Source: a virus
Virus record (IMG/VR): IMGVR_UViG_3300027733_000106
Coordinates: 1 to 39,117 of that record
Strand: one strand, 5' to 3'
Length of the DNA: 39,117 bases
Part shown: positions 1,194-22,700 of the stretch, piece by piece
Numbering within the stretch: position 1 is the first letter of the stretch
Layout: every line of letters starts with the position of its first letter
The notes under the pieces: generated by a model
Told to the model about the DNA's origin: nothing
Databases searched by the model: none
The model's input: the letters and a program-made list of their open reading frames with translations, nothing else
Translations under genes and position numbers: made by a program

Positions 1194-1226
1194 ATACTTT
1201 TATCACACTAAAATTAAAAGGCGTAA

Positions 1227-1514: not shown

Positions 1515-1545
1515 TTAATTATATTACACTTACAGAGGAAAAAAC

Positions 1546-1800
1546 ATGACAGAAGAAACTACACAAGCCGCAGTACAAGAACCAACACAAGACGCAGCTG
1601 CACAAGAATCAGCAACCGATCTTACTATTAATGATTTAAATGCATTAAAAACTATCATTGACATTGCTAGTTCAAGAGGTGCATTTAAACCTACTGAAAT
1701 GGTAGCAGTTGGTCAAACATATACTAAATTAGAAAACTTTTTAACACTTGTATCAAAGCAAGCTGAAGCACAACAAGCTACTCAACCAGGTGCGCAATAA
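1546..1800 (+). CDS. small acidic protein conserved in T4-like marine phages
   Basis: An 84-residue protein. Its first 23 residues are Gln/Thr/Ala/Glu-rich and probably disordered. A compact helical core follows, with DLTINDLNALKTIIDIASS near residues 25-43 and a conserved-looking RGAFKPTEMVAVGQTY stretch, then a Gln/Ala tail. I recall very similar small proteins of unknown function in T4-like cyanophages, just upstream of the next two genes found here. An AGAGGAAAAAAC ribosome binding site supports the ATG. Its TAA shares one base with the ATG of the next gene, which suggests translational coupling. Function unknown. Confidence 0.8.
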   Translation: MTEETTQAAVQEPTQDAAAQESATDLTINDLNALKTIIDIASSRGAFKPTEMVAVGQTYTKLENFLTLVSKQAEAQQATQPGAQ

Positions 1801-2462: not shown

Positions 2463-2754
2463 AGACGTAATAGAAGTTTGGCCTGAAGTATTTGAAGAGG
2501 TAACGTTACAATCGTTACCTCTTCTTTATTTGCATTCAGTAGTTATTAATTTTAAAGATAATAAGTCTTGGGAAATAAAATTAACAACGAAAATAAAAAA
2601 AGACGGATGGTCTAGCTTTCAACAAAGTTTATCAGAATTATTAACTTCATACGAAGAACAAATTGATGACGTAGACTTTAAACTTGATGCAGTAAAAGTA
2701 AAAAAAGATGTAGAAAAACTAACTAATAAATTTTTAAAGAAACAAAAATTATGA
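2434..2754 (+). CDS. conserved small phage protein upstream of thyX (TTG start)
   Basis: A 106-residue protein that starts with TTG at 2434, inside the end of the previous gene. The conserved-looking PLPKDVIEVWPEVFEEV stretch begins at residue 7 and no ATG or GTG lies in frame near it, so the TTG is the best start; an AAGG element lies 7-11 nt upstream. The middle reads LPLLYLHSVVINF, and the C-terminus is Lys-rich and helical. Related proteins sit just before thyX in T4-like cyanophages and have no known function. Its TGA overlaps the thyX ATG (ATGA), so the two are probably coupled. The exact N-terminus is uncertain. Confidence 0.7.
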   Translation: MLKQTKPLPKDVIEVWPEVFEEVTLQSLPLLYLHSVVINFKDNKSWEIKLTTKIKKDGWSSFQQSLSELLTSYEEQIDDVDFKLDAVKVKKDVEKLTNKFLKKQKL

Positions 2755-3518
2755 ACATTAAATTAGTATCGTATTCTCAACCAACTGAAGAATTTGCTGA
2801 ATTAGGAATTACTGATGCACAAGAACTTATAGCATTTTGCGCTAGAGTAAGTAATCCGTCAAATCAATTTAATACAGAAACTTCAGAAAAATTAATTAAC
2901 TATTTAATTAAGCATGCGCATTGGTCACCACTTGAAATGGTCAATGTATGTTTAGAAGTAAATACCACTCGCGACATTGCTCGTCAATTATTACGTCACG
3001 CTTCATTTAGATTCCAAGAGTTTAGTCAACGATATGCAGATCCAACTCAGGATTTGTCTTTTGAAATACGTGATGCTAGATTTCAAGATCCTAAAAATCG
3101 TCAAAATTCAATTACAATTAATACTGCAGAAGAAGAGGCGATTAATGACGAATGGCATCTAAGACAAGAAGCTCATATTAATTCAGCAAAAGCACAATAC
3201 GAATGGGCCATTAGCAACGGCATTGCTAAAGAACAAGCTCGTGTCGTTCTTCCAGAAGGCAATACTAAGAGTCGTGTGTATGTTAACGGGACGTTGCGCT
3301 CATGGATTCACTATATACAAGTGCGTAGTAACGTGGATACACAGCTTGAACACAAACAAGTTGCAATAGCGTGTGCGCAAGCAATTAGCGCAGTATTTCC
3401 AATGGTAAATGGCTTTGTTTACAAGGAAGAACCAGTTCCAGAACCTATTAAAGAAGAAATTGTTGAACCTAAGAAGCTTAAATGGCATCAACACTTTTTT
3501 AATTTTTACAAACACTAA
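2751..3518 (+). CDS. thyX: flavin-dependent thymidylate synthase ThyX
   Basis: ThyX makes dTMP from dUMP with methylenetetrahydrofolate, FAD and NADPH; phages use it to keep up dTTP supply. The 255-residue protein has the right length and landmarks: HAHWSPLEM near residue 55 (usual family form H..H.S.lEh), a signature block at residues 82-95 reading RHASFRFQEFSQRY, and a C-terminal substrate-site region with ARVVLP, NGTLRSWIHYI and SNVDTQLEH. The usual signature is RHRxxSxxxxSxR; here the second arginine is Ala84, while R82, S92 and R94 are kept and an arginine appears at 87. About 30 C-terminal residues are a Pro/Glu-rich tail ending in aromatic residues. It is last in its operon and followed by a hairpin terminator. 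Confidence 0.93.
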   Translation: MNIKLVSYSQPTEEFAELGITDAQELIAFCARVSNPSNQFNTETSEKLINYLIKHAHWSPLEMVNVCLEVNTTRDIARQLLRHASFRFQEFSQRYADPTQDLSFEIRDARFQDPKNRQNSITINTAEEEAINDEWHLRQEAHINSAKAQYEWAISNGIAKEQARVVLPEGNTKSRVYVNGTLRSWIHYIQVRSNVDTQLEHKQVAIACAQAISAVFPMVNGFVYKEEPVPEPIKEEIVEPKKLKWHQHFFNFYKH

Positions 3519-3525
3519 TCACAAC

Positions 3526-3547
3526 AAAGCCGGCATATGCCGGCTTT
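3526..3547. terminator. bidirectional terminator between convergent operons
   Basis: A perfectly self-complementary 22-bp sequence with core GCCGGCATATGCCGGC flanked by AAA and TTT. As RNA it gives a GC-rich stem with a short AU loop in either direction, and U-runs follow on both strands. It lies between the thyX stop (3518) and the end of the convergent late operon (3570), so it probably stops transcription both ways. Confidence 0.85.
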
Positions 3548-3569
3548 ATCATTTATAACAGTTGCGTTA

Positions 3570-6500
3570 TTACCAAGTAATAGATACAAATCCAGCTGTT
3601 CCTGGTTTTCCAGAATTAACAACGTTATCTTCACTAGTTATACCGCCGTTGCCGCCTTGGCCGTAAATAGATCCATTGTTTGCACCTTGGCCGCCTGGTG
3701 TGTAAGCATGATTAACTAATTTACCTGTAAGTAAATCAATATAGGCGTCACGCAAGCCAGTTTGTCCAGGTATTAACGGGCTAGTTACTCTAGTTGTGCC
3801 AGGACCTGTAAGATATGCACTGCCGGCGCTGCCGCCTGTTGTAATATAATCGTTACCACTGGCGCTACCACCAGTATCATTGAATCCTTTACCACCGTTG
3901 CCTGCGCCGGCAAAAATCGTACTAACAGTAGTTGCACCGTTTTTTATTACAACTTGAGAGCGAACACCTGAACCTCCAGTTCGATATGCTGCTTGAAGAA
4001 CTGTATCACCCTTGGCTCCAAATCCTGCTATGCCGCCGCCGCCAACATTAATAGTAGCTGTCCACCCGGCTTGTACAGGAACATCAACACCAATTAATCT
4101 CCCGGCTCCGCCGCCGCCGCCGGCTGCGCCGTTATAGTCTCCTGTATCCCAGCCAGCACCACCGCCACCACCACCGCCAATTACTAACACGTATAGCGAA
4201 GTAACTCCTTCAGGTACAGTAAATGTATTATTAACGGTTGTATTAGTACCGGATTTATACTCTAAATATCCAAAACTAACTTCATTTGACATAGGTAATA
4301 CTGTAAATTCAATATATGCTTCGCCGCCAATTTCTCCAGACTGTGTTAACGGTACGCCTTCTACCCCACCAAGATACGGAGTTCCGCCGGTATCAACAGT
4401 TGTAGATGCAACCCCACGACCGCCTACACCTCCGGCTGCGTAATATCGGGTTAATTCTGGAAAACCAGGATCTATGTACGAATATCCGCCGCTTCCTGCA
4501 CCCCCATACACTTTACCGCTAACTGTTCTACTTATACCATACATACCCGACGGTGCTCCGCCTGCACCTGTTCCGGGCGTAATGGTAGGATTACCTGCTG
4601 GATCTACTGCACTAGCGCCGTCGGTTTTATAACGAGTAGTTAACGAATTATTTGCTGCACCACCAACTACTGTAGCTTCTACAGTTGGTGTAGTTCTACT
4701 TGGAACAGGTATCGGTCCGCCGCCTGCGCCACCACCACCGCCTGCTACAGTTGCTATATATGTGTCATCTGCAAATAATTCAAACGCATCGCCGCCGTTA
4801 CCGCCTAGGCCTACTTGTGAGTTAATAGTTGAAGACGCTTTTCCGCCTTTTATTAACTTAAATCTTAACTTTGAGGCACCTGATGGAATAGTTACTATTC
4901 CAGATATTTTATCGCCAGCACCTCCGTTTCCGCCAAATGCAACTGCCATGCCGCCACCACCACCACCACCGCCGACCATAGTAACAGCTACTGTAGGGTT
5001 GTCTGATGACAACAATAATTCACCCGATTTATAAAATCTACGCGTAATCATTGTCTTAGATACTGTAATATCCGATGTTGATTTAGTTACTTGTGTACCG
5101 TTAACACCAGTTGCAGTGTACGTTACTTTAAACTTATTATTAGACTTTGCTGTAGTATTTGCCGAAATTGATAGTTTAGCGTATCCGGTATTTGCAGCTG
5201 CAGTTACATAAGTTGGAGTTAATGTTGTAGATAACCCGCCAGAGCGGGTTGACGAGTTATTAACCATAATACCATCACCATTTCCTTCAATTGCAAAGTT
5301 AATAGTTGCAACACTAGGAGAAACTGATACTACAAAGTCTGTTGCAGGTGCACCTATTATTATACCAGTTGGTTCTTTAACTGATGTAATTACTACATTT
5401 GGTACTACTGGAGAAATTACTGGCACTGCTGGAGTAGTAAAATCGTATCCAACTTCCATCTTACCATTTGCTGCTTCTGATATAATTACTTTAAATTTCT
5501 TACCTAATCCTGCAGGATCAGTTGGAATAAGTACAGGCAATTGATACCCGCTATTTACATCAGTAATTGATCCTGAAATAGCACCTGATTGGAACCAGTT
5601 AGCATTAACATTACTACTAATACCTTCTATTCTCCACCAAATAGTAGTAACTGATTTTGGAGATGTAACTGCAATTGATACACCGGTAGTTTTATTAACA
5701 GGTCCGCCAGCTGGCGTCATTTTATAACCGGCACTTAACACCACTTGTGGACTTGTTACGTTAATAGTAGTTCCAGATTGGTTAGTTTCTTTAATAGTAA
5801 TTGTAAATGGTGTATCTGTAGTTAACGGAGTTGTATATGTTGTTTTAGATGATACATTAATATCAAATGATTTAGTAGTAGATATTACAGTTCCCGTAGT
5901 TGCTGTAAAATAACCACTTAGTGCAGAATCATTAATTTGCCAAAATATAGTTCCTACAGTCGACGTTGCTGGTAATTTAAGGGTGTATTTTACAATTTCA
6001 TTTGGCAAAATACTTGCCTTATCACTATTAAGTGTAGCAACACCAATATCGTTAAACGTAACAGCATTAGATAAACCGCCAGTTACTGTAGGTCCACCGT
6101 CTGTTAAACTAACTGCTAACTTAAATGATTTGGCTGCTTCAGAAATTAAATCTGTTGCAAGTGTAAGAGCTACGGTTGTAGTACCACCAGTAGTAGTTAA
6201 TCCTGTTTTAGTACCTGTTAATTCAGGTAAAGACGGATTAAAATCACTAGCATCTACACCACCTGTTGTTTCTACAAGTTGCCAATAGAATGTATTATTT
6301 GGAATACCTGGATATGTAACAGTAAATGTTACAGTGTTACCTTCAACTAATGGAGTATTTGGTACAATAACTGAGAATGTTTGATTCTGTGTTACACGGA
6401 TAGTAGGTGCAACTACATCAGTTTTAAATCCAGCTGACTCAGATACTTCACTTATTTGTATTGTATATGATTTAAGATCAGCTAAATGAGTCGGAGTTAA

Positions 6501-9500
6501 CGATACACTAAATTTATTATCTTTAACTTTTTCAACACCAGTTAATTTATTTGCAGACGCAGTTTCTTTAAAATCGGCAACTGTTACTGTTGCTGATGAA
6601 CCACTTTCAAGTACTTCCCAGTATATGCTAGTGTTTGCAGCTAAAAACGGTGTTGATACATAGAACGTAGAACGAGTGTCTTTTACTATTGACTGCGATC
6701 CAGCAACACCTGTGATTGGATTAATTAATGATATGCTCCATGTTCCTACTTCTTTAATAGTTATAATTGGAGACGAAGCTGCAAGTTGAATTGGAATGTT
6801 ATCACTAGTAAACAACTTAATACTAAATTTATCAGCATTTCCTTCTGGTAAATTATCAGGATTAGCAGTTAATGTAAATGTTCCAGTAAATTTACCAGAA
6901 ACTACATTTTTAGTAACAGTAAATGATCCAGTAATTGGACTACCTGCAGAATCTTTATGTTCTACAAAATCAGTGTATACTACTGTTCCGTCTTCTGAAA
7001 CAATTTGATATTTTAAACTTGTAGACGATACACTCATTGCAGGCGTTGTAACAGTAAATACCACGTTGCTAGACTGGCCACCGGACACTGGGTTTTCATA
7101 GATCTCTAACGTGCTTGCTGCGATGTTATACCCAACATTTTCTGTTATAGTAATAGTTGGACACGGACTAATTGGTGTAATTAGTGCATTTGCACTGTCT
7201 CTCAAAGTTATTGTAAACTGTTCATCACCTTCAGTTGAATCAGTACTAACCGGTGTTAATGTAAAATAGCCTGTACCAGTTGAACCAATAGTTATATCAC
7301 CAGTAAGTGACCCTGACCCAAAATCAGGTGCAGTTACTCCTGTTCCTACAATAGTATAATGAATAACAGTTGGCGCTACTGATAACGGAGTAGTTACGTC
7401 AAATCTTACAGTTCCGCCTTCTACAACTGATAATTTGTCAGCAACAATCGAATAAGGTTGAGCTTTTGTAATTTCAACTGCAGACGATTTAGCTGCAGAC
7501 TGTGTTGCAAGGCTGTTATCGTCTAACCGAATGTCTAACAAAAATGCCTTTGTACCTGTTCTAACATTTGCAACAGTAGTAATTGTTATGTCTAGGTGTC
7601 CTTGACTGTTTACATACACTGGACCGCCTGCAAATCCTTCTGCAATTTCATTTTCGTTTACTGATGTTGAAAGAATTCTCCAGTAAATTGGTTGAGTAGT
7701 AGGGACATTTTCTGTAGTTAACGAGAACGTAACAGATTGACCTTCAATAACTGAATTATGATTAGGCACAACTGATTTAACCATAGCAGGCGGCACTTCA
7801 ACCGGCTCAGGAGTTCCTGACGTATCGTTAATCATAATTGGCACTAACGTTCTTGCTGCAAATGGGCCATTTAACGAAAGATATGATTCAGAAGCAACAT
7901 AATCATTAAGTTCACTTTCAAGTAAATCTGGAAATTCACGAAGTTCAATATAGAAATTCATGTTGCCTTCAGTTAAGTTATCCGCATTTGCTGTTAATAA
8001 AATTTCAGAGGAGTTGTTATCATCTACATGAATAATACCGTACATTTGTGTCAATTCAGACATAGTAGACAGAGTCGATGTATAATTAAAATTCTGACTA
8101 CCCATACCAGCCGATACTGCTTTCCAGTATAACGAAGTTCCTTTAGTACGTTTTGGAGTACGTACAGTTAACGTCATGCTATCACCTTCGTTAACATTAG
8201 TTACATCAATTCCGTTAACTTGCGGTAATAAAATACGGAATGGAACAAGTTCTGTTACTGAATAAATATCACTTACTTTTATAGGATCTGTATTTTCGCT
8301 AAGACGTAGCTCAATTTGAAAGGTTTCTGTTCCTTCAGTAAGTGCATCATTTATTGCAGTTAATGTAAATGATGCCACCGAAACAGTTTGTGTACCAGTA
8401 GTAATTAATTGAGTCCTAACAGTACCATATAATCTGTTAGTAGTACCTGATGTTGTATCAGCATCAACTACAGAAAAATCAGCAGACGTAATATTTCCTT
8501 GAACTGGTCGTATTCTCCAAAACATTGGCGTATTATTTGCCATCCATGGTGTAACAAATCTAACTGTTGTACTAGATCCTTCTCCCATAGTTGATGCATT
8601 GTTTGATAATTTAATCGTATAATCAACAAGTTCTTTAATTAACAATGTATCAGTTTGTGTATGTACAATTGCACCAGTTGAACTTGATGAACGTAACACT
8701 ATTCTAAATTCTTCATCGCCCTCTGTTGAATTATCAGCAATAGGAGTTAACGTAAGTGTTCCAACACTGTCATTAATTGGAATAGCAGTCGATTGTTGTA
8801 AAAAATCTGCAGCAGTTACAGTACTAATACCGTTTGTTACTGACGAAATTGACCAATACACTGTTCCGCTTACTGTATACGGAGTTGTAATGGTGTATGT
8901 TACTGAATTAATGCCTTCAGTAACTGTAGTTATTGATGTAGTAATTGTATATACTGGTAATTCAGTAATTGTTTCACCAGGGCTTGAAATTAATACAGCG
9001 CCCGCCCCGCCGGCTGCAGTTCTAATATCAACACGGAATGTTTGATTACCTTCAGTAATACCTTCATCTCGTGGATAAACATCAAAATAACCAGTGCTGT
9101 TAGTAATGTTAAAACTAGCACCAAGTGCTTCAAAATCACTAGAAGTTATAAGTGAAGTAGTTGAGATATTCCAAAATAAAGTATCAGTTGGCGTATACGG
9201 AGTTGTAACAGTATAACGAATACCGGTTGTACTACCTTCAACTACTTGTGATGTTGGAACACTAGAAATTGTATACCCAACTGTTTCAGTAATACTAACA
9301 GACGGACTTGTTACTATCCAATTTTCCGGAGTTAATGGATACGCTTTATAAAATTCAACTTTAAAGCTTTCAGTTCCTTCAGTTACTCCGTCATTTCTTG
9401 CATATCGTTTTAATGCTGCTGCTTTAGATTTTACAGTAATAAAGTCGTTTGAAGTTCCGCCAATGCCTGCACCGCCTACTGAATACGTACTACTAAAATC

Positions 9501-11405
9501 AGCTGACGTTATTTCTCCAACTGAATCTTGAACTATTCTCCAATATACCTTAGTTGAATCAGCTAGCGCCGGCACGGATAATGAAAATTCTACACCTGCA
9601 GTAGGAGAGTTTTCACTAAGTGAAGTAATGCCACTAGTTGAAACAGACGGAGGTACTATTGGTACATTAACATAATCATCTGTGATTTCAATTGTATCGC
9701 TGGTATCTGATAATTCTTCTATCCCATTAACTGTAATATACAGTTCAATTCTAAAAAATTCTGTACCTTCTTGTCCATCTTTAGGTTTCAACGCACGTTT
9801 TAATATGTAAGTAGATGCGCTACTAATTGAAAAAGTTCCAGTATCTGCACCATCTGTAAAATCAGCTGCAGATATGTCAGTACCCCCATCGGATACAGCA
9901 ACCCATCTTACTTTTAATGGAGTTTTTGCATTTAATGCTCCAATACTAAACAACGCAGTTGCACCTTCTTTATATTTTGAAGTTGTTTGTGTTTTAAAAT
10001 ACACTGATGGTGCAGGTGGAGGTGGTGAAGCAATTGATGTATCTTGAATTACTTCATATGCAGTTGTTAACAACTCTGCTACTTTATTAGTTGCAGATGG
10101 CACAGCGTCAGTTCTGACTATAAAGTTAAACTTTTCAGTTCCTTCTTTTGTTGATAAATCAGCAGATGCCTTTAGTGTAATTGGACCAGATGTATTATTA
10201 GTAATGGTAATAGGTATATTTACAATTGAATCGAGTTCAATTCCATCAGCATCAAGAAAATCTGCAAAAGTAACACCTGCACCAATTATTGACCAATATA
10301 CCTGAGTGTCATCGTCAACATTAGTAGTTACAATTTCAAAATCTACACCAGTTATCCCATCTTCTCGCATTATAGTTGCAGACCTTGTAATAGAATATCC
10401 AGGTGCTGCTTGTCCTGCTTCAATTACATTTGAATCAGTTACAATGGTAGGTAATGGAACTGCAACATTAATGCCAGTTGCTCTATAAGATTTTGCTATA
10501 CTAACTAGTGTACCCGATACATTTAGTTCTAGGGTTGCATTTGCTGCATCTACAAACTCAATTGTAAATTCAATAGCGCAATCCGTTTCCTCGTCAACGT
10601 TAACAATTTTTGCAGAAATTGAATAATAATTTAATAAGAATGCGTTATCTGTTGAATATTTGCGGAAAACTTCTTTTTTCTCTAATAATGGTCCGTTAAC
10701 ATCAAACAATGACGCATACCCAAAACTTGTATTACCAATTTTTGATGTAGATTTTGTAGCTGTTCTAGTAAAACTAAGTGTACCTAAACCTTTTAATAGC
10801 GAAGTCCAAGATGTATTTTTTGCAGCAGATGAACTTTTTGGAATTGCACCTACTGTAGTACGCGATGCTAGTAATTGAATTTCACTTCCAGTGTTGAAGT
10901 AAAATCTCATATCTTCTGCCGTACCAAAATTTACTTGAAATGTATGAGTAGTAGTTCCATTCCATTCAGATGTTAGTTGTTGTCGTGCAATCTCAGTGTT
11001 AGTTGCATTTGCTGGTGACGGCGGAGTTCTTAATCGATCAGTTTCTGCTAAATTAACTGCACTTACTAACTGTCTAACATAACCTAATGATATTGCCTGA
11101 CTGCCAGCTAATCCTGGTATAATAGCAGCTGAAGCTAATCCTGTTTGGTGAATTCTTGCTTTTTTTATGTCATCTGCTAACAAATTATACAATGTATTTG
11201 TTAAACTTGTGTTTGGTGCTAATGGAGCATTTTCATCAGTTAGTAATGTTTGACCATATCCATAATTGCCTTCACCTGTTCCTAATATCCAACTTATGTT
11301 ACTTTGAATATTATTATATTCATCAACAGTTAAGGTTGCTGCTGAATTAGCAGCTGCTCCAGACGAGCCTGATAATGCCGCAATTGTTAGTTTTTGTATT
11401 GCCAT
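3570..11405 (-). CDS. giant tail fibre/adhesin: Calx-beta-like repeats and polyglycine-rich tip
   Basis: A 2611-residue protein, last gene of the late operon, with an AAGGA ribosome binding site. Residues 1 to about 320 form a distinct N-terminal part, probably for attachment to the tail. Residues from about 320 to 2120 hold roughly 15 degenerate repeats of about 105-140 residues. A typical unit has VxEGxxVxFxVTTP, then a W/Y-WxI strand, TxADF, and TEGxExFxIxLR. This acidic-loop pattern resembles Calx-beta sandwiches, but the family is inferred. From about 2140 to the end there are two Gly-rich segments (runs of up to eight glycines, GGNGGAG, GGGGGAGGG), resembling the glycine-rich domains of phage receptor-binding tips. 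No signal peptide or membrane segment. Likely function: a long host-binding fibre. The receptor is unknown. Confidence 0.8.
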   Translation of the reverse strand: MAIQKLTIAALSGSSGAAANSAATLTVDEYNNIQSNISWILGTGEGNYGYGQTLLTDENAPLAPNTSLTNTLYNLLADDIKKARIHQTGLASAAIIPGLAGSQAISLGYVRQLVSAVNLAETDRLRTPPSPANATNTEIARQQLTSEWNGTTTHTFQVNFGTAEDMRFYFNTGSEIQLLASRTTVGAIPKSSSAAKNTSWTSLLKGLGTLSFTRTATKSTSKIGNTSFGYASLFDVNGPLLEKKEVFRKYSTDNAFLLNYYSISAKIVNVDEETDCAIEFTIEFVDAANATLELNVSGTLVSIAKSYRATGINVAVPLPTIVTDSNVIEAGQAAPGYSITRSATIMREDGITGVDFEIVTTNVDDDTQVYWSIIGAGVTFADFLDADGIELDSIVNIPITITNNTSGPITLKASADLSTKEGTEKFNFIVRTDAVPSATNKVAELLTTAYEVIQDTSIASPPPPAPSVYFKTQTTSKYKEGATALFSIGALNAKTPLKVRWVAVSDGGTDISAADFTDGADTGTFSISSASTYILKRALKPKDGQEGTEFFRIELYITVNGIEELSDTSDTIEITDDYVNVPIVPPSVSTSGITSLSENSPTAGVEFSLSVPALADSTKVYWRIVQDSVGEITSADFSSTYSVGGAGIGGTSNDFITVKSKAAALKRYARNDGVTEGTESFKVEFYKAYPLTPENWIVTSPSVSITETVGYTISSVPTSQVVEGSTTGIRYTVTTPYTPTDTLFWNISTTSLITSSDFEALGASFNITNSTGYFDVYPRDEGITEGNQTFRVDIRTAAGGAGAVLISSPGETITELPVYTITTSITTVTEGINSVTYTITTPYTVSGTVYWSISSVTNGISTVTAADFLQQSTAIPINDSVGTLTLTPIADNSTEGDEEFRIVLRSSSSTGAIVHTQTDTLLIKELVDYTIKLSNNASTMGEGSSTTVRFVTPWMANNTPMFWRIRPVQGNITSADFSVVDADTTSGTTNRLYGTVRTQLITTGTQTVSVASFTLTAINDALTEGTETFQIELRLSENTDPIKVSDIYSVTELVPFRILLPQVNGIDVTNVNEGDSMTLTVRTPKRTKGTSLYWKAVSAGMGSQNFNYTSTLSTMSELTQMYGIIHVDDNNSSEILLTANADNLTEGNMNFYIELREFPDLLESELNDYVASESYLSLNGPFAARTLVPIMINDTSGTPEPVEVPPAMVKSVVPNHNSVIEGQSVTFSLTTENVPTTQPIYWRILSTSVNENEIAEGFAGGPVYVNSQGHLDITITTVANVRTGTKAFLLDIRLDDNSLATQSAAKSSAVEITKAQPYSIVADKLSVVEGGTVRFDVTTPLSVAPTVIHYTIVGTGVTAPDFGSGSLTGDITIGSTGTGYFTLTPVSTDSTEGDEQFTITLRDSANALITPISPCPTITITENVGYNIAASTLEIYENPVSGGQSSNVVFTVTTPAMSVSSTSLKYQIVSEDGTVVYTDFVEHKDSAGSPITGSFTVTKNVVSGKFTGTFTLTANPDNLPEGNADKFSIKLFTSDNIPIQLAASSPIITIKEVGTWSISLINPITGVAGSQSIVKDTRSTFYVSTPFLAANTSIYWEVLESGSSATVTVADFKETASANKLTGVEKVKDNKFSVSLTPTHLADLKSYTIQISEVSESAGFKTDVVAPTIRVTQNQTFSVIVPNTPLVEGNTVTFTVTYPGIPNNTFYWQLVETTGGVDASDFNPSLPELTGTKTGLTTTGGTTTVALTLATDLISEAAKSFKLAVSLTDGGPTVTGGLSNAVTFNDIGVATLNSDKASILPNEIVKYTLKLPATSTVGTIFWQINDSALSGYFTATTGTVISTTKSFDINVSSKTTYTTPLTTDTPFTITIKETNQSGTTINVTSPQVVLSAGYKMTPAGGPVNKTTGVSIAVTSPKSVTTIWWRIEGISSNVNANWFQSGAISGSITDVNSGYQLPVLIPTDPAGLGKKFKVIISEAANGKMEVGYDFTTPAVPVISPVVPNVVITSVKEPTGIIIGAPATDFVVSVSPSVATINFAIEGNGDGIMVNNSSTRSGGLSTTLTPTYVTAAANTGYAKLSISANTTAKSNNKFKVTYTATGVNGTQVTKSTSDITVSKTMITRRFYKSGELLLSSDNPTVAVTMVGGGGGGGGMAVAFGGNGGAGDKISGIVTIPSGASKLRFKLIKGGKASSTINSQVGLGGNGGDAFELFADDTYIATVAGGGGGAGGGPIPVPSRTTPTVEATVVGGAANNSLTTRYKTDGASAVDPAGNPTITPGTGAGGAPSGMYGISRTVSGKVYGGAGSGGYSYIDPGFPELTRYYAAGGVGGRGVASTTVDTGGTPYLGGVEGVPLTQSGEIGGEAYIEFTVLPMSNEVSFGYLEYKSGTNTTVNNTFTVPEGVTSLYVLVIGGGGGGGAGWDTGDYNGAAGGGGGAGRLIGVDVPVQAGWTATINVGGGGIAGFGAKGDTVLQAAYRTGGSGVRSQVVIKNGATTVSTIFAGAGNGGKGFNDTGGSASGNDYITTGGSAGSAYLTGPGTTRVTSPLIPGQTGLRDAYIDLLTGKLVNHAYTPGGQGANNGSIYGQGGNGGITSEDNVVNSGKPGTAGFVSITW
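5040..10440 (-). repeat. about 15 degenerate beta-sandwich repeats within the giant fibre gene
   Basis: The protein repeat is visible by eye: an EG-containing strand, a TTP turn, a YWxI strand, an ADF motif and a TEGxExFxI/V strand recur about every 105-140 codons. The repeats are clear in the first two thirds and lose the EG and TEG motifs in the last three or four units (about 5050-6360). DNA identity between units is low, so the array is old. Confidence 0.75.
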
Positions 11406-11415
11406 TTATATTCCT

Positions 11416-13176
11416 TTATAAAATTACTGATTCGACAATTTTAATAGTGTCGTTACTATTATCTTCAAGTGCAACTGCAAATACTAGCCATGAATCTAAC
11501 GAATTTTTAAGAACTTTAGCTACTCCTGTATCAGCTGCAACTAAATGATCGCCTTTTTTTACACTTCCGATAACTTTAACTGGTACTCTTCCTTTTAATG
11601 CAACTAGTGTACCGTTAACAAGCTCACTGTTCATTATAACCGCTGGATTTATTGATATTGCACCTAATGCTCGTTTGCCATATGTAGCAGCAGTTACTTC
11701 GTGTTCTCCGCCAATCATTAATACAGTGCCTTCATCATAGGTGTCATCTGCTAAGTATTTTTCAGCAACGTCACCATTAGCAGTAGTTGATGTTCCTACA
11801 AAATAATTTGCAACAATTGATCCAGTTGGCATTGTTAAATAACCAAATTGTCCGCCAGTTGAAAATGAACTCGTTTGCGTTATTTGTCCACCTGTTTCAA
11901 ATCCAGTTGTAGTGCCCAAAGTTAACAACACTGTAGTAGATCCTTGGGTTAATGTTGCTGCAAATGGGCCTGCTAAACTAGTACCATCTTTTTGTTTAAA
12001 TGTAAACGTTACGGACCCAGTTGCAACATGCTGATTACTTACTGTAAATGTAGTAGTGTTATCTCCACTAATTGACGACACTTTTAAATATTTAGACGTT
12101 GCAGATGTGCGTGCTACAATTGTTCCCGAAGTTGGTGTATCACTTGCTGATACATAACTTGTACCAACTTTAAGTTGATCTGCAGAATCAGCAGTACCTT
12201 TAAATGAAGTTGCATGTACTTGATTAAATACACTGGTACTTGCGCCAATATTTGACGTGCTAGGCGTTCCTGGCAAAATATCTGCACCGTTAATTTCTAA
12301 TGCAGTTTTAGTTGCGTTAGATTTAAAAGTTTTAAATACTATTTTTTCAGATAATTTATTTTCAATAGTTGGAGTTACTGCATTACCAGTAGTATCATTA
12401 TAAATGTATAATTTTTTCTTAGCAGTTTCATTACCAATAGTAAGACCAATATCAGCAAAAAACGGACTACTTGTGCTGATATAAGTTTCTGCTAAATTTC
12501 CACCTAATCTATCAGAATTAGTTGCTGTACCCCAAAATTTATATGTACTAGTTACAAACGTTGATTGATTAACGTCTTTTGATGTAATACCAGGTTTAAT
12601 TGAAGTAAATCCTGTAATAGGAGTGCTAGCATTTAATGTAAATGCAGATGTGCCTTCGTACATAACATAAACAGTAACATCATTAACAATAACTTCAATG
12701 ATATCACGATCAACCGGAGTTACTGCATTATCTCTTACTACACTACTTTTTATTTTAGTTTTAATACCAGTCAACGAACCGCCAATAAACTGTAAATTAG
12801 CAGTGTTAGTTTTACAATATAAATTATTAGTAGTAGTATCCCACCAAAAATTACCAGTTGATAAATTAGTTGGTTTGTTGTCAGTTTCAGTTGATTCAGT
12901 AATACCTAATACGTGCCATTCTTTTAAATCTGAAGTACCTGTATTAACTTTTAATCGTTTAGTTGATGTTTCATACCATAACTGCCCAGTAGTTGCTTTT
13001 GACGGAAAGGTATCATTTGCAAAATTTTCCAATAAATGAAGAAAATTTGAATTTTGTGGTATTCCATAACCGGCATAATTCTTACCAATTAATGTAATAT
13101 CAAATGTTGTATTTAATGATCCATCTAGTACAGTTGCTGCTAGATTACCATTAGATTTTTTAATGTCATAAGCCAT
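11416..13176 (-). CDS. tail fibre-like protein with shared N-terminal module and C-terminal autoprocessing-like domain
   Basis: A 586-residue protein. The first 90 residues carry the module shared with the next two upstream genes: ITLIGKNYAGYG, NFLHLLENFA, GQLWYET and LKVNTG. The middle is Ser/Thr-rich and beta-like, with NIGASTSVFNQVHATSFKGTAD near residues 305-325. The last ~120 residues, from GDVAEKY (about 464) through LMIGGEHEV, RALGAISINPAVIM, ALKGRVPVKV and GDHLVAAD, resemble a C-terminal domain found in many phage fibres and in SP-beta-type Peptidase_G2/autoproteolytic proteins; cleavage is not shown. An AAGGA ribosome binding site and a late-promoter octamer lie upstream. Probably a trimeric fibre. 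Confidence 0.75.
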   Translation of the reverse strand: MAYDIKKSNGNLAATVLDGSLNTTFDITLIGKNYAGYGIPQNSNFLHLLENFANDTFPSKATTGQLWYETSTKRLKVNTGTSDLKEWHVLGITESTETDNKPTNLSTGNFWWDTTTNNLYCKTNTANLQFIGGSLTGIKTKIKSSVVRDNAVTPVDRDIIEVIVNDVTVYVMYEGTSAFTLNASTPITGFTSIKPGITSKDVNQSTFVTSTYKFWGTATNSDRLGGNLAETYISTSSPFFADIGLTIGNETAKKKLYIYNDTTGNAVTPTIENKLSEKIVFKTFKSNATKTALEINGADILPGTPSTSNIGASTSVFNQVHATSFKGTADSADQLKVGTSYVSASDTPTSGTIVARTSATSKYLKVSSISGDNTTTFTVSNQHVATGSVTFTFKQKDGTSLAGPFAATLTQGSTTVLLTLGTTTGFETGGQITQTSSFSTGGQFGYLTMPTGSIVANYFVGTSTTANGDVAEKYLADDTYDEGTVLMIGGEHEVTAATYGKRALGAISINPAVIMNSELVNGTLVALKGRVPVKVIGSVKKGDHLVAADTGVAKVLKNSLDSWLVFAVALEDNSNDTIKIVESVIL

Positions 13177-13216: not shown

Positions 13217-14110
13217 TTAAAGTTGCGATTGATACGTCCAGACACTGTTTACTACCATAAACGATTTGATAGTTGATCCATCAAGCGATACAACTTTGCA
13301 GATTGGGCCAGTGCCATTGCCATCAATCGTGTCAACTGCATAATCGGCAGCTGGAAAGATAACCTCTAATTTTTCACAGATGACTGTAGTATCAGTAATA
13401 TTTAATGTTATAGTAAGAGGAGCTAACTTTAGTTTGTTATTTAATGATCTTAAATTAACTGCATCTGCATCTTGTTCCGGATCACTTATATTTGATAGCG
13501 TTGCAAATTCTGGTGTTAAAAAGTTAAATCCGGCTCTAATATTTTCAAACCCGCCAACTCCACCGATTGGATCTTTTAAGTTAAACGTGTCAGCACTAAT
13601 AATTCCAACCGTTACCGAATCAACGATTGAACCCGATATAGGCGAAATGGAAATTATTATAATGTTATGTGCTAGCCCTTCTTCATCAAGAACTGCTTCA
13701 ACTGCAACACCGTTATTTGGTGAATTAATTGGACCAGCTAATGTATTTGATACGCCATCATTAAAATACAACTGTTTGTTTCTACTGTCAATCCAAAGAT
13801 CGCCTTTAGAGATTGAACTAGGCATTGAATCTGAAACAATAGTACTGCTGCTTAATTTAAACGCAGTACCGTCGTACACTTTTAAACGACTTTCATTTAT
13901 ATCAAACCAAAGTTGACCTCGAATTGGGTTAGCAGGAGCAGCGCCCGATGAAAAATTTTCTAATAGTCTAACAAAATTTTCATTTAAATTTTCACCGTAC
14001 GAACTTGCGTTTTTTCCAATTAATGTTAAACTTGTTGATAGTTGATCCAGTGTACCGTCAACTATTTCTGTTAGTAACGTTCCGTCTGTGTTGTTTATTA
14101 AATAACTCAT
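13217..14110 (-). CDS. short tail fibre-like protein with the shared N-terminal module
   Basis: A 297-residue protein. Residues 1-110 repeat the module of the neighbouring fibres: LTLIGKNASSYG, NFVRLLENF, PIRGQLWFD, LKVYDG and a second GDLWIDSRNKQLYFNDG unit. The remaining part is Ile/Ser/Thr-rich and probably beta-structured, with DADAVNLRSLNN near residue 215, but it has no collar or autoprocessing-like domain. It looks like a shortened paralogue of its two neighbours and may be an adaptor between the baseplate and a longer fibre; this is inferred. The ATG overlaps the previous stop by one base, with a CAGGT ribosome binding site. Confidence 0.7.
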   Translation of the reverse strand: MSYLINNTDGTLLTEIVDGTLDQLSTSLTLIGKNASSYGENLNENFVRLLENFSSGAAPANPIRGQLWFDINESRLKVYDGTAFKLSSSTIVSDSMPSSISKGDLWIDSRNKQLYFNDGVSNTLAGPINSPNNGVAVEAVLDEEGLAHNIIIISISPISGSIVDSVTVGIISADTFNLKDPIGGVGGFENIRAGFNFLTPEFATLSNISDPEQDADAVNLRSLNNKLKLAPLTITLNITDTTVICEKLEVIFPAADYAVDTIDGNGTGPICKVVSLDGSTIKSFMVVNSVWTYQSQL

Positions 14111-16098
14111 TATAATTTACCTGTAAATATTATGTAATTAATAGTTAAAAATGGATTCATTGCTGAATATCTTGCAGTACTATTAGTTAACGGTGTTATA
14201 GACGCCGTATCTAACGCGTTGGGTTGTGCAGCTGTTATATTTTCGCTTCCTGATGCTAACCCAATTATTTTACTACTAGCATCGTGAACCCGATTAGCAG
14301 GGCCATTAGGATCCCCAGTACCGTTTCGAGTACCACGTGGATTTACTGTACCGGAACCATTTTTATTAGGAACATTACCTAAAGATGCGTTATCCATACT
14401 ATCAAGACCTAATGGAAATCTGCCTCTTAAATCTGGTAATGCAAAGGTCGCATTACCAACTAACTTAGATTCAATTCGATACGAATAAGAAATAACACTA
14501 AACAACTCAGAATAGACAGCTGTTAAAATTTCACTGCCATCACATAATAGATATCCAAGCGGAACAACTGTACCTGCAAATGGAAGAATTGTGCCAACCG
14601 GTATTGACGGAACAGATGCTAAGAAATCAGATTTAGCAATACTTTTTAAATCTGAAGAAGTACCTTCATTACGAAATACTAATAATAAATCTGTATTAAA
14701 CGCACTAGTAATTGGCGGCTTGCCTGTTATTAATCCTGAACTAATTGTCGTTTTAATTTCGATATTGTCTTTACCATTATACGGAACTGCATCGCTAGTA
14801 AAATCACCAATTAATTTAATTGATGCAGCCGATTGTAGAAACCCTGCCGAGCCCGATACATTTCCATCTACGTTTCCTGTTACGTTTCCTGTTATTATTC
14901 CATGTAATCTAGTAGCATAAATGTCTTTAAATCTTAAAGAAGCTGTTCCAATGTCATATACATCATCAAGCGTTGGTTTAATTGCTGGTTGGCCGGTTAA
15001 TACTGATACTGTTAACCCTTTAGTTGTCTTTACTTCGTCATTAAATGTTGATATTTTATTAACAGTTAACGTACCATTTGAAGTAATTCCTCCAGGAGTA
15101 CTATCAGTAGACACTCCAACTACTAAATTTTTGCTAATTTTTGCTTCACCATCTACATCAAAATCTACTGATGGGTTAGTTTGATTGATACCAATTCGTT
15201 GTCTTGTATCAATATGTAAAATGTTTAAAATATCATTTGAACTATTTTTAACTCTAAACTGTATATTTTTGTTTAACGACGTTTGTGTAATAACTGAGCT
15301 ATCGATGCCAATATTAAAACTTAAATCTCCACCTATCGTTAATCCGGAATTTGATTTAACTTCAAATACATTATTAGTAGTTGATTTTACGTCAGATCTT
15401 AAAAAATTTGATGCGTTTACTGCAACATTACTAACATTTAGACTGTCAGCAGCAGTTGCAGTACCTACTAACTTAGCAGCAACAGTACTCGATACTTCAG
15501 TAGTTAATGTAATGCCTCTATTTACAGTAGCAAACCCTTTAATAAATGATTTTGGTACAAAAGTATCTGAACTAAGGATTGCAATTCTTTCATTATTTGA
15601 ATAAAATGAAATTATATTGTGCGGTGCATCATTAACACTTGCAACTGTGTCACTAACTGAATCAACAATTGCACCTGTTTTTAACCCGCCACTAAATTGT
15701 GGCCCAATTAATGACCACGAAATTCCAGAAAAAATGTACAATTGTTGCGTAATTGGATTAACCCACAAATCACCGTTACTAGAATTTGATGTAGGTTCTG
15801 TAGCAGATTTTGTTACTGCGCCAGTCGGTACCCAATTTGATCCGTCGTACACTTTAAGTAATGAATCAGATGTGGTATTATCATACCATATTTGCCCTTC
15901 AACCGGGTTGTTAGGTGCTGTACTTTTAGCAAAATTTTCTAATAAATGTAAAAAATTTTCTGCAATAATTGATGCATACCCTGTGTAATTTTGCCCAACA
16001 AATGATAGAGACGTTTGCTTATTAACATTTTTGTCTTCAACAGTAATTGCAGGTTTTGCAGAATTAGTGCTTTCGGAATACTTAACTTGATATGTCAT
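14110..16098 (-). CDS. short tail fibre-like protein with gp12-type collar domain
   Basis: A 662-residue protein. The N-terminal module (SLSFVGQNYTGYA, NFLHLLENFA, EGQIWYD, LKVYDGSNW, then GDLWVNPITQQLYIF) is shared with the two downstream genes. The middle contains RIGINQTNPSVDFDVDG near residue 300, a common fibre-shaft motif, and TLDDVYDIGTASLRFKDIYATRLHG near residue 385. A phage tail collar domain follows at about 500-580 (IPVGTILPFAG, PLGYLLCDG, FALPDLRGRFPLG). The end, NPFLTINYIIFTGKL, is the usual finish for such proteins. T4 gp12 short tail fibres have the same kind of distal domain. It probably assembles as a trimer at the baseplate and touches the cell surface. An in-frame GGAG ribosome binding site is present. 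Confidence 0.82.
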   Translation of the reverse strand: MTYQVKYSESTNSAKPAITVEDKNVNKQTSLSFVGQNYTGYASIIAENFLHLLENFAKSTAPNNPVEGQIWYDNTTSDSLLKVYDGSNWVPTGAVTKSATEPTSNSSNGDLWVNPITQQLYIFSGISWSLIGPQFSGGLKTGAIVDSVSDTVASVNDAPHNIISFYSNNERIAILSSDTFVPKSFIKGFATVNRGITLTTEVSSTVAAKLVGTATAADSLNVSNVAVNASNFLRSDVKSTTNNVFEVKSNSGLTIGGDLSFNIGIDSSVITQTSLNKNIQFRVKNSSNDILNILHIDTRQRIGINQTNPSVDFDVDGEAKISKNLVVGVSTDSTPGGITSNGTLTVNKISTFNDEVKTTKGLTVSVLTGQPAIKPTLDDVYDIGTASLRFKDIYATRLHGIITGNVTGNVDGNVSGSAGFLQSAASIKLIGDFTSDAVPYNGKDNIEIKTTISSGLITGKPPITSAFNTDLLLVFRNEGTSSDLKSIAKSDFLASVPSIPVGTILPFAGTVVPLGYLLCDGSEILTAVYSELFSVISYSYRIESKLVGNATFALPDLRGRFPLGLDSMDNASLGNVPNKNGSGTVNPRGTRNGTGDPNGPANRVHDASSKIIGLASGSENITAAQPNALDTASITPLTNSTARYSAMNPFLTINYIIFTGKL

Positions 16099-16099
16099 A

Positions 16100-16705
16100 T
16101 TACGCTCCGATACTTGTTAAACTTTGTATACGAACAGTATAGTCAATCTGAATTAATCGGTTTAATGACTTTTGCACAGGATGAAAAATAACATGGGTTA
16201 ATAACATGCTGTTACCATCATTACTAAATGATTTTAACCCTAATTCATCAAATACAAACTCACTGTTATTGTTGTTTGCCGTATCAAATGCACTTTGTCC
16301 ATATGGTTCTGTATAATCCAATAGACATGAAACAAATACATCTGTATAATTTACACCAGTTACATGACGTGTTTGAATGTAATTTCGTGTTGGATCAATG
16401 TTATTAGTTGATCGATCATTAACAACTTTTGTAAAAGTTTGGTTGTATAAACTTGCATTTGTTCCTGAACTATTAGGAGTTAAGTATGTAATAATACCAG
16501 TAGGATCAACCGCAGTACCGCCGTTTCCAAACGCCAGTTGATATATAAAACCTTCGCCGTTATCTGCAATACTTTTTGCCAATGCAATGCTTATATTTTC
16601 ATAGTGTATAGCATTTCGTTTGTTTACATACACTTCTTTACTAGAAGGATCAAAAATTTTAATATGTCCTTCTATATGTAGTCCTGTAATATCTTTATTC
16701 TGCAT
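16100..16705 (-). CDS. conserved virion-associated protein of T4-like marine phages
   Basis: A 201-residue protein with no clear catalytic motif. It begins with a beta-like stretch (HIEGHIKIFDPSSKEV), then NAIHYENISIALAKSIAD near residue 33 and FIYQLAFGNGGTAVDPTG near residue 53, and ends in a beta-rich part with DELGLKS and IDYTVRIQS. I recall similar proteins next to fibre genes in T4-like cyanophages, annotated as structural or hypothetical. Its position between the giant baseplate protein and the fibres suggests a connector or chaperone role; this is inferred from context only. The ribosome binding site is weak (GAGAG), and a GATAAATA late-promoter octamer lies 20 nt upstream of the ATG. 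Confidence 0.7.
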   Translation of the reverse strand: MQNKDITGLHIEGHIKIFDPSSKEVYVNKRNAIHYENISIALAKSIADNGEGFIYQLAFGNGGTAVDPTGIITYLTPNSSGTNASLYNQTFTKVVNDRSTNNIDPTRNYIQTRHVTGVNYTDVFVSCLLDYTEPYGQSAFDTANNNNSEFVFDELGLKSFSNDGNSMLLTHVIFHPVQKSLNRLIQIDYTVRIQSLTSIGA

Positions 16706-16754: not shown

Positions 16755-19700
16755 TTAAATGTTTCCTGGGTACTGACTTCCTGGCATTGCATTTAAGAAG
16801 GAAGTAATTGCTATTTTAACTGCATTTGATTTAACAGTTTCATTCCAATCAGTTCCTACACGCTTAATAACTGTAATAATTGTTCCTGCAGGCACTGCAG
16901 TTTCTAATCGAATTTGTTTAGATTTTCCATTTACTGAAAATTCTGCATTATACTGCACATCACCTAATGGACTTGCAATATTAATATTAGCATCATGTAT
17001 CTGATAAGGTACTTTTTTCAATAATTTACCATCAATAACTACTTCAATATTATTACATTGCCCATAATCAGCAGTACTATTGTTGTATACAATTGAATTT
17101 TGATCATGTGTGTCTAAAATTACTGTATTTTTAGTTCCTCGTTTTAACTGGCTTAAAATATTACCTGTAATTTCATTAAATTCAATACGTTCGCCATTTA
17201 TCGTAACTACTCCGGGCTTATTTGGTTCAAGTTTAAAACTACTTGCATCAGTAACTGTTATTGAGGTGTCTTCTCTTAACAATGTAACTGCTAACATAGT
17301 TGTTTTCAATACCCAGTTACTTGATTTTATAGGAAATACTGAAATATCTACATACTGTGATCCATCAGACTCAACCTCAGTAATCAATATATTATCTTGA
17401 TATGGCATCGTTTCATTAGTACCAATTTCTTGTACCGATGCACTAACTTCATGTACTGCTAAAATACCAGTACCTAAGGTTCCTCTACGAAGTTGTCCTA
17501 ATACATTTCCGTTAATAGTAAAAAATTCAATACGCTCGCCATTTATATCAATTACTCCTGGTTTATTTAATTCAGGAGACGGTATATCAAATGTACTTGC
17601 ATCAGTAACTGTAATTGTAGTATCAGTTAGTAACAATGCAACCGTTAATTGGGTCTGTTTATCTGCACGTAATCGTTTAATATGAGTGCGATTTAACATA
17701 TCTTTAAACTGCATGTATGACCCAGTTGGATATTTTGCAGTAGCATCAACTTCTGTAGTGCGATCATATACTTTAATTGCAAGTGCATCAACTACTTGGC
17801 CAGGTACCACTTCTTCTGGTCCTGCATCAGTATCTTGATTTATTAAACTAGAACCATCAATGATTATTTCAGACGCTGCAATACCTGCTGCTGAATGTTC
17901 TGCAAAACTTCCGCCGCTAATTGCAGTATCGATATTATATTCAGATTCGGAACCAGCACTAGTTGAATTACGGATAATAAACATATCACCGTCATTTATT
18001 TGAAAATCTACAACTTCTCCCGATTTATTAGTATACGTCGACGGAATAGTAACTATTTTTGAAACTCCATCTGCAACATATGATGACATTATTGCATGAT
18101 CGTTCTTTATAGAAGTATTTCCATAATTATCATCATCTATACGCACTACTTCGCGCTTTCCGCTCAACTCTAGTTTTACGCCTAATGGAAATGCACGTTT
18201 TAATGTAATAGAAGTTCTGCTAATCTTTAAAAAATCACGATATTTAACTAGTTGTCTTTTAATTTTCAACTCAGTGGTTGCAGCTACTAATGTACTCAAC
18301 ATATTAGAAAGCGTAACAACCTTAGTAGTTGTATTAATATCAATAATTGTTGTGTTATAGTTAAATTCACCTGCAACTATTGTCATTGCACCTAAACTAT
18401 CAGTAACTCCAACTTTACTTCCGCTAACAGTTAAGCTAATAGTAAATTGTGTACTACTAATAATTTCACAAACATAATATGTATGTTCCAATAGTAATCC
18501 GCCAACTGATGTTTTACCTGTAAAAAATAACGGCATATTTACATATAATACCAATGTACTATTAACCGTTAAGTAATTATAGGTACTAGACGTTGATATT
18601 AATCGTAACGTAGTAGTTGTTACAGGATGGATGTTATTTGAAACAACATCACCTATTTTAATCTGGTCAACTGAATCAAGATGTATTTCATTAGTATTAA
18701 AATTTGCATCTGTTAATACTTTTGCTAGTTTATACACTGCTACACTTGGTATATGTTCGTATTTTGAAAAATAATACGTTAATGTTCTACCATCAGTTGA
18801 CAGCAATTTTGTATAATTAAAAGAATAATATACATTTAATACTGATCCAATTGTTGGTATATACGGTAATTCTATATTGTACGTATTTGCAGCAACAGTT
18901 ACTTGATAATCATCAATTGTTGGTTTAAAACTATCCCACGATTCAGTATAGTACGGATTACTATCCCATCCAACTGAACTGTTAACATTTACTCCAGACA
19001 GCACTACTCCGGCATATTCAATACCAGTCATTAATTGTGCTAAATCTTTTCCTAAATTACCCGGTCTTGGAGTATAATAAAATTGAATTCGATCAACTGC
19101 AGTCATTAACGATACATCTTTTATATAAGTTACAACTATATTGCCGTTAGGTGCAGAATCGAATGTAATCAAACCTACGTACGATTCATACCCATTTGCA
19201 GTTGTTATAGTATCAACTTTAATAGTATAAGTATCACGTAACTGCAACAATCCGTTAACGGTTACTGACGAATACCCAACACGAATATCAGGAGCCCACG
19301 TTAATCTAAATTGTACTAATCTAGTTCCTATAAATGTATCGGTACAATCTAAAGATGACATTGCATAATTGCTGTTAATTCTATCAAATTTTAATTTAAT
19401 TAAATTAGATCTAACTACACCATTACCTAATATTGCAATTGCAGTTGCAGCAACTCCGTTACTTGCAAGACCATTTTCAATCTTAATTTCAGGAACTGAC
19501 AGGTATTTTGATCCAGCTGTTACTACAGTAATACGAGATAGTTTGCCGCTAGAAATATACGCTTTTGCAGTTGCATTGTGTCCAGTACTACTTACTACAG
19601 TAACTGTTGGTTCTGATATATAACCTGATCCACTGTTAAGTACTTTTATAGATACTACTGAATATCCTGCATTATCATACCAACTTTGTGTAGTATACGG

Positions 19701-22700
19701 TGCATTACTAGCTGCAGTAATTTTTCCATTTTTAAATTTATAAAACGATGTAGATTCAGCCGGTACATCAAAATCAGTAGTTAATAAATTGCTAGTGTCA
19801 GTTGCATCATACAAACTAACATATTCTCTTACTTGTGTTCTATAAGGCTTAACTTCATTAACATAATCTTCAAAATTACTTAAATTGTCATTTTGATATG
19901 TAACTGTTTGATGCAATGCTCCAACATTATGCATTACATTAACAAAACTAGTCTTAAATATCCAATCAATATATGTCTGTTCGCTCAATGCAGCACGCAC
20001 ACAAGTAAAGAACAATTGCAAATATTCTGACTTTAAGTCATCTATAAACAATTTATCTTTTATTAGATTTAAAATTATACGTAATTCAATTACTGCACCG
20101 TTATCGTAAACTCCTTGATCATAAAAATACCCATCATACCCAATTGTTGTATCTGCAAAGTTATATAACAATGAACTAAATTGAATAGTACCATTTTGAC
20201 TGCCAATAACTTTATAAGATTGTGTCCAATCAGAAGATTTTACATTTTTATATTTTTTTAATAACACCCAGCGGTTTGAATTAGTTGTTCTTACATTAAC
20301 AACCTCACCAACTGCTGCATCCAAATCATACAAATCAGAATAGGTATTAACTGAATGCGATACTGCTGTATACTGCGTATAACTGACGTCATACCAATCT
20401 ACATAACTCCAGTATTTACGAGTATCATAAGATTGCATTAACACTTTATTCCACTCTTCTGTAGTTCTATCGTAATCATATATGCTCCACACACTATTTG
20501 AAGACAAATCACTCTTAACTAACACAGAATAATTTCTAACTGTAATTATAGTATTATCGTCATATCCTTCGCCGGAATTAATAATTTCACAACTATTAAT
20601 TGCGCCTGTATTACTAATTGTAAATCTTACAACTGCACCAATACCGGTTCCTATAACATTTGCATACGGTGCATTTAAATAACCTCTTCCTGGATTAATA
20701 ATATCAATACCTGTAATTTTTCCGTTAACAATTACCGGATTAATCACTGGTTTAATATATGATTTTGCAACAGTTAATCGTAATTCTGCATCAGTATCAA
20801 TATCATCATCGTATAATCCGCGGTTACTGTTTGGTATTGGATCATACATAAATAAATCAGATAAGTCACGAGTATCTACCATTGCATAAGTTAACATTAC
20901 TAAATTAGTTTGTTCAATAAACTGCTTTAACGTTTCACATCTGTTAATAAACATACTTTGGCGTGGACGATTATCTATACCATACTGCAATTTAACTGGT
21001 AATAAGTTATCAGGAACGTTGCGGTGTTGCATATCATATCCGCATAAACTGTCAAACCATTTTTGTTCAATACTTGCAGGTAATACAGTACGTTCATTTG
21101 CGCTAATTAATTTCCATTGAGAATGAATATTTTGAGTAATTTTATCATTTGTCCAATATTCTACTGATAAAACTACGTCATCATGCGATAACATCGGTTT
21201 AACATTAACTAAACTAAACGAATTAGTTCCTGTTAACGCTAAAAACGCATAGCCATCGCCTCGCGGATTTGCAATTAAACTTGCCACATTTGACGCTGAC
21301 AAATTTCTGCCAGCAACATTAGGTATCGTTATTTTATTTTTAACCCAAAAATAGTAAGTGTAAGAATAGCGTTGGCTTATTTTATCATACCTGCGGCGTT
21401 GACAATAATACAAATTTCCATATAATGATTTACCACTTATTCCATTGGCTAATCCTGCATCAGTGTCTGCAGTTTCGTCCCAACTTTCTGGCAATAATTT
21501 TGATTCTACCCATTCATATACATCTATAGTAGCACCGTATGCAAGTGTACTCCACGTTGAGTTTCTATACGCAACATCTTCAGCATAACTACTAATAAAC
21601 TTAGCAGTTCTTAAATCCCACCATAATGTGCCAACTTGTTCTGTATTCCATGCAATGTCAGCATCAACGTTAACACCATTAACTACTGTTGTAGTAGTAT
21701 GAATACTATATATTGCAGGATCATAAAACGATTTAAACTTAATTTCACGATCTGCAATGATTGGATTTTTGCCATATAATGAATCTACTACATCTAAATA
21801 TGTTACTACCTGGTTAGAAACTTTGTTATATAAAAATGCTTGTTTGATTTTTGTTACATCAGGATGAGATATTGCTTGATGTTTTACACTCCATTCAGCT
21901 AACTTCCATTCCCAAGTTATCCACTGTCCGTCAGATCCTGCATAATTGTCAGTCCAAATTAACTCACCTAGTGCAGCACTAGATGGTATGTTGTTATCAT
22001 CTTTGTTAATGTACCGACGAGACACTAATATATTAACATGTAACTTAGCAACTTCTTCGTTACTTAAAGATGGTCCAGATGCTAATGCAATACTAAACTC
22101 AGTACTTGTTACACTAACAACTTTAAAAAATTTATTATTATATAACGGTTTTGGTGTACTATTTGTATCAATAAGTTTAATGTACTGACCTTCTGTTAGC
22201 GTATTATCGCACACAAATCTAACAGTAGTTGCTGTTACATGACATTCTTTAAATGTTGTTTCTGCTAACTCAAGTTGGTATACATTCCAACTTGTTCCTT
22301 CAAACGTACACCATACATATTGTCCAACTGAAAGACTAGTTGAAGATGTTAATAATTCACTAAGTGATTTTACTACTAATGAAACTTCACTTTCTCTAAC
22401 ATGGCCACATGGTCTTAGTACTTGTGCTTGTTTTGTATTCTCAGGCCAAATAGATGGTGTATATCCAAGAGGTTTTACATACACCTCTGTAGGTAAAACG
22501 TGAATAATATAATCATTACTTACAACATCGTTAGTATTTAATAGCTGAAATCCTTGTGGATTTGATCTAAATGAAGATTCGTCTAGTTTAAATTCAACAG
22601 TATTAAATGCCAAAGATGCACCGTAGCTCCCTGTACGGATTGCCCATTCTTCATAAAATGTTAAACTTTCTTTATTAGACGAGCTTAATACATCAAATAA

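Follow-up and report, generated by a model that had tools for sequence, protein, structure and literature searches.

A probable modular receptor-binding adhesin in a T4-like jumbo phage: an N-terminal module, a Calx-beta-like repeat rod, and a Gly-rich tip in one chain

The window analyzed here, a 39-kb IMG/VR fragment (39,117 nucleotides, record IMGVR_UViG_3300027733_000106), contains a single, intact open reading frame of 2611 residues (3570..11405, minus strand) that probably encodes a modular receptor-binding adhesin with a docked N-terminus, a Ca2+-stiffened rod, and an exchangeable Gly-rich tip. The N-terminal module would anchor the protein to the tail or baseplate, approximately 15 Calx-beta-like beta-sandwiches, probably stiffened by Ca2+ at acidic sites, would hold the tip tens of nanometres out, and two terminal Gly-rich modules, swapped by recombination, would bind the host surface. 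An earlier note made from the DNA alone had described a reading frame of exactly this length, which is real but lies on the minus strand, and had placed rod and tip in one chain, which is borne out by a tip that forms the C-terminus of the 2611-residue protein.

The source of the window is a T4-like jumbo phage, as indicated by the match in gene order, a gp6 homologue (28604-32053) that is 32-37% identical to jumbo phage baseplate wedge proteins, and a conserved 201-aa gene (16100..16705, minus strand) that is 52% identical to its counterparts in Atu_ph07 and Phosso and served as the synteny anchor. The genes from 37405 down to 3570 share one orientation and constitute a T4-like baseplate and fibre cluster. 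Besides the 201-aa gene, its minus-strand members include a 3949-aa structural protein (16755..28604; ORF call and synteny), a 662-aa tail collar fibre-like protein (14110..16098; phrog_523, E 1.4e-15), and, based on annotation search and synteny, a 297-aa virion protein-like gene (13217..14110) and a 586-aa virion/fibre-like protein (11416..13176) that is the constant syntenic neighbour of the adhesin. The adhesin frame begins 10 bp past the stop of this last gene (11416), with an AAAGG motif about 7 nt ahead of its ATG. The location of the adhesin gene among tail genes agrees with the tail-fibre role that the earlier note had suggested, as far as context is concerned. No fibre chaperone gene was found after the adhesin frame; the convergent gene, a ThyX-like thymidylate synthase by inspection (2751..3518, plus strand), ends 51 bp from the adhesin stop, and phage 121Q also has an annotated thymidylate synthase near its homologous cluster. 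In Sinorhizobium phage Phosso (L089, 19260-31785), four annotated radical SAM genes and an oxidoreductase are located downstream of the homologous fibre region. Elsewhere in the window, a 262-aa frame (291-1079, minus strand) has an HNH-like ending (HIDHV...N...NYKKH), and about 900 bp around it (312-1215) are cleanly missing from a close relative (L092), consistent with the empty site of an inserted homing-endonuclease-like gene; a frame cut by the window end (38311-39117, plus strand), containing recurrent 'LEKYGV' units as well as a Cys4 motif, resembles it in style and is possibly another endonuclease-like gene.

The rod occupies residues 333-2117 and is composed of ~110-residue repeats, 14 of them clear and one (repeat 15) faint with a hidden Markov model (HMM) that includes the window's own repeats, matching the roughly 15 degenerate repeats of the earlier note. 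An independent HMM, built from the repeats of two other phages alone so that detection is non-circular, recovers 12 repeats in the adhesin (domain E 8e-9 to 4e-24), and the real repeats score 21.9-71.1 bits, compared with a best score of 10.6 bits in 200 rod shuffles. Based on the repeat HMM and the alignment of acidic positions, the rod can be divided into a proximal, Calx-beta-like part (repeats 1-12, residues 333-1786; 6048..10409, minus strand) and a diverged distal part (repeats 13-15, residues 1789-2117; 5055..6041, minus strand). The repeats are termed Calx-beta-like because the window adhesin scores 25.5 bits with Pfam Calx-beta (PF03160), below the gathering cut-off of 27, while relatives pass it (G001, 29.8 bits; L103, 43.4 bits). 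In a PDB fold search with the repeat model, the second- and eighth-ranked matches are to NCX1, as the full exchanger (8jp0, E 1.5e-7) and as CBD12 (3us9, E 5.5e-7), with Ig-type folds alongside that match about equally well. The Calx-beta likeness proposed earlier is upheld by these relatives above the Pfam cut-off and by the presence of NCX1 among the top fold matches. Neither the repeat profiles nor the tip profiles had a significant match in sequence searches of the PDB, and weak Pfam matches (AGS_C, Ig_3, 60KD_IMP) were dismissed as chance matches inside the beta-sandwich repeats. Calx-beta-like repeats also occur in structural proteins of another contig (L098) and of the cyanophages S-RIM44, Syn1, and S-CAM3, including the baseplate hub/tail lysozyme gp5.

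Alignment of the repeat model with NCX1 CBD1, using a query sequence confirmed to match that of the PDB chain exactly, places columns 49, 74, 78, and 81 on D421, D447, E451, and E454. The Ca2+ ligands of NCX1 CBD1 are E385, D446, D447, I449, E451, D498, D499, and D500, and D421 is a Ca2 ligand in the isolated domain; E454 is not among the coordinating residues, and the E454K mutation replaces the Ca1 site (PMC3386913). The putative repeat equivalents of E385 and D498 fall outside the aligned stretch. When four core acids (columns 16, 49, 74, and 78) are scored, at least three are kept in 10 of the 15 repeats, all ten within repeats 1-12; repeats 8, 11, 13, and 14 fall short of three, with the acidic positions lacking in repeats 13 and 14, and repeat 15 is too faint to judge. 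To judge from this alignment, most rod repeats probably carry acidic sites expected to bind Ca2+, and the calcium-type site suspected in the earlier note corresponds to positions that align with known NCX1 CBD1 ligands. CBD1 and CBD2 of NCX1 are likewise beta-sandwiches with these acidic ligands; however, they are a cytosolic regulatory pair in an ion exchanger, whereas the window repeats would form an extracellular rod. The alternative of a generic, metal-free Ig-type spacer for the rod, in which the acidic motifs are structural, is unlikely but deserves the most serious consideration among the alternatives. It would accommodate the sub-threshold Calx-beta score of the window adhesin, the many Ig-fold structures that match the repeat model, and the five of 15 repeats that are without most of the acids or too faint to judge, but it does not account for conserved acids in register with the Ca2+ ligands of NCX1 or for the two relatives over the Calx-beta cut-off.

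A third part of the protein, overlooked in the earlier note, is a 326-residue N-terminal module (residues 1-326; 10428..11405, minus strand), whose relatives reveal how the protein is constructed. An AlphaFold model of residues 1-582 (mean pLDDT 82.5) comprises helices, a beta domain, and then two beta-sandwich repeats, while residues 1-326 match no PHROG family and none in Pfam convincingly. Searches of cultured phages by tblastn with the whole adhesin, its N-terminus, and its tip yielded zero matches, and scanning IMG/VR for peptide patterns of the full-length adhesin was equally fruitless. Relatives were reached by synteny through the 201-aa neighbour gene, by which 80 loci were fetched, and the gene order is conserved wherever the contig is long enough. 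Among 62 complete homologous proteins (some from contigs that are near duplicates), 51 are no longer than 384 aa and are nearly all N-terminal module, in an unchanged slot after the baseplate/fibre genes. EST35_0123 of Pseudomonas phage PA5oct (406 aa) matches the N-terminal module (HMM E 7.5e-41) and has the same gene order as in the window, following a gp10-like baseplate protein; its record is annotated with ESI-MS/MS, as are those of its neighbours, including the gp10-like protein. Module homology and synteny place the window adhesin in the same virion-protein family, although the PA5oct protein lacks both the rod and the Gly-rich tip. Judging by this annotation, the N-terminal module belongs to the virion in PA5oct, and in the window adhesin it is likely a virion docking module. 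Amongst the cultured phages recovered here, the dock is found only in PA5oct-type phages; Atu_ph07 and Phosso, which are the nearest cultured phages when judged by the 201-aa neighbour, are without it, and neither the dock nor the repeats had a match in Atu_ph07, Phosso, 121Q, or CBB.

The extended relatives demonstrate a variety of arrangements behind the same dock. The full layout of dock, rod, and Gly-rich region is also present in G001 (2618 aa; 14 repeats, then a Gly-rich region and a different end), in G002b, in L103 (2558 aa, 14 repeats) and L105 (2975 aa, 14 repeats), both recovered by a further scan, and in two tandem genes of L106. Other relatives join the N-terminal module to a Gly-rich domain without a rod (L014), extend it by Pfam He_PIG Ig domains (L004), or carry three repeats (L024), and G002 encodes two tandem giant adhesins of 2205 and 2568 aa. 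A count of 14-15 repeats recurs in six proteins from five phages, and proximal repeats tend to match best by position among the window, G001, L103, and L105. This positional correspondence marks the array as old, with a length that has apparently been held, and a recent expansion by fresh duplication was rejected on that ground. Relatives that keep the dock but vary or lose the rod and tip point to what may be a host-grabbing fibre made from swappable parts. In L106 (6656-15384), three tandem dock copies comprise adhesins of 1094 and 1481 aa (five repeats, Gly-rich ends) and a stand-alone protein of 312 aa, so that dock-only and adhesin forms coexist within one phage.

Hair-like whiskers are carried by the related jumbo phages CBB (about 119 nm, along the tail; PMC5259590) and Atu_ph07 (mainly on the capsid; PMC6102473). 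These whiskers, and the proposal that Ig-like domains on phage surfaces help surface interaction (PMC5259590), raise the alternative that the adhesin is a whisker or surface decoration of the virion, with weak and non-specific adhesion, and not a baseplate-anchored long fibre. This alternative is improbable given that the adhesin slot lies in a baseplate/fibre operon with a tail collar fibre gene nearby, and that the missing dock and repeat matches in Atu_ph07 and CBB indicate that their whiskers are another protein. The same result led to rejection of the adhesin as the source of the whiskers in those two phages; a Pfam Calx-beta search of both, run without a positive control, carries no weight. 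An appendage similar to whiskers is nevertheless possible in the window phage.

The tip (residues 2118-2611) is about 490 residues long, contains 24.4% Gly, and consists of two tandem Gly-rich modules; the earlier description of about 470 Gly-rich residues was correct as to composition but gave a shorter extent and a single block. Module 1 (residues 2118-2375; 4281..5054, minus strand) has no Pfam match, and module 2 (residues 2376-2611; 3573..4280, minus strand) is a member of Gly_rich_2 (PF21722; 35.1 bits versus a cut-off of 24.3, E 1.8e-8) and also matches phage minor tail protein families weakly. No relative could be confirmed when the tip alignment was used for a scan. The fold model of the tip has a pLDDT of 38, too weak to prove the polyglycine helices that these modules may form, and its fold list is headed by the Gly-rich domains of ALK/LTK (E about 0.1-0.4) and the Bxb1 tail tip, none of them significant. 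Together with the strand pattern ahead of the first GGGG loop, this list points to the type that combines a TNF-like with a Gly-rich domain (ALK, LTK, Bxb1). The tip, in particular its second module, probably belongs with Pam3 gp24 and ALK and not with S16 gp38. A gp38-type tip joined to a rod, which was the reading of the earlier note, is very doubtful, because the strand pattern and fold list favour the other type and gp38 is outside the top 50 fold matches of the weak tip model, even though Gly-rich motifs are present and Pam3 gp24 and S16 gp38 have a common Gly-rich layered architecture (PMC9608196); of the earlier reading, the recognized Gly-rich domain stands, while the kinship with gp38 becomes doubtful. 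Compared by description, S16 gp38 is also a Gly-rich receptor-binding tip, but it is a separate small protein on gp37 with a beta-helix middle domain and no rod, while the tip here is fused to the 2611-aa chain. Other small Gly-rich proteins were encountered on related contigs: three tandem Gly_rich_2 proteins of 285-307 aa on another jumbo phage contig (L095 of G017, 1864-4462, minus strand), a possible tip cassette, and, in G001 (L094, 1-2809), Cys- and Gly-rich proteins of 206-263 aa, arranged in tandem with further small genes and with a Cys content unusual for a phage tip-like domain.

Placing a Gly-rich tip at the end of a longer chain is in itself no novelty, with precedents in Pam3 gp24 and the LSH1 hub. 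The tail fibre Pam3 gp24, which contains TNF-like and Gly-rich domains and is reported to resemble ALK and S16 gp38 (PMC9608196), is likewise one chain with an N-terminal dock and a Gly-rich distal domain, used in gp24 for host recognition; however, it is short (modelled to residue 280), has a helical dock and no repeat rod, and requires the chaperone gp25 (PMC9608196), whereas the window adhesin has a rod of about 1785 residues and a pair of Gly-rich modules. Polyglycine-rich (brush) domains are known at the C-terminus of the LSH1 hub protein and on siphophage tail tips such as that of mycobacteriophage Bxb1 (PMC13243795, PMC13252515), there on a siphophage hub or central fibre, and the consulted parts of these sources mention no Calx-beta rod. 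The fusion of a Calx-beta-like repeat directly to a Gly-rich domain is already known in cyanophage P-SSM2 (PSSM2_126, Q58MM8), although that protein is 485 aa long, has one repeat, lacks the dock module, and lies in another gene context. The one-chain combination of rod and Gly-rich tip, which the earlier note had considered unusual, is therefore real but has precedents.

Comparison with the closest relative, G001, reveals uneven conservation across the locus. Identity is 97% for the convergent gene and 77% for the 201-aa gene, 38-41% for the fibre-like genes, 37% for the dock, and 31% for the rod, while no match to the tip could be detected. At the DNA level, the two phages are 88% identical from 1216 to 3554, where identity halts 16 bp from the adhesin stop codon (homology end at 3554..3572), with none through the tip. 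Such a break is the trace that would be expected from exchange of adhesin sequence by recombination, which may have swapped the tip, and other histories are possible.

The suggestion that the adhesin represents a new class of long fibre built from a single protein, with a fixed-length, Ca2+-stiffened rod of 14-15 beads, a dock that otherwise occurs alone, and an exchangeable polyglycine tip, is tentative and falls somewhat short of an even chance; if it is true, reach and stiffness would depend on ambient Ca2+. The dock, rod, and tip plan is contained in one gene whose natural versions differ in length, so the role of the rod and tip in adsorption could be tested by comparing relatives. The analysis also yields a Ca2+ hypothesis for phage adsorption in which specific residues are named, and adds a candidate long appendage to a group of jumbo phages that includes whiskered relatives.
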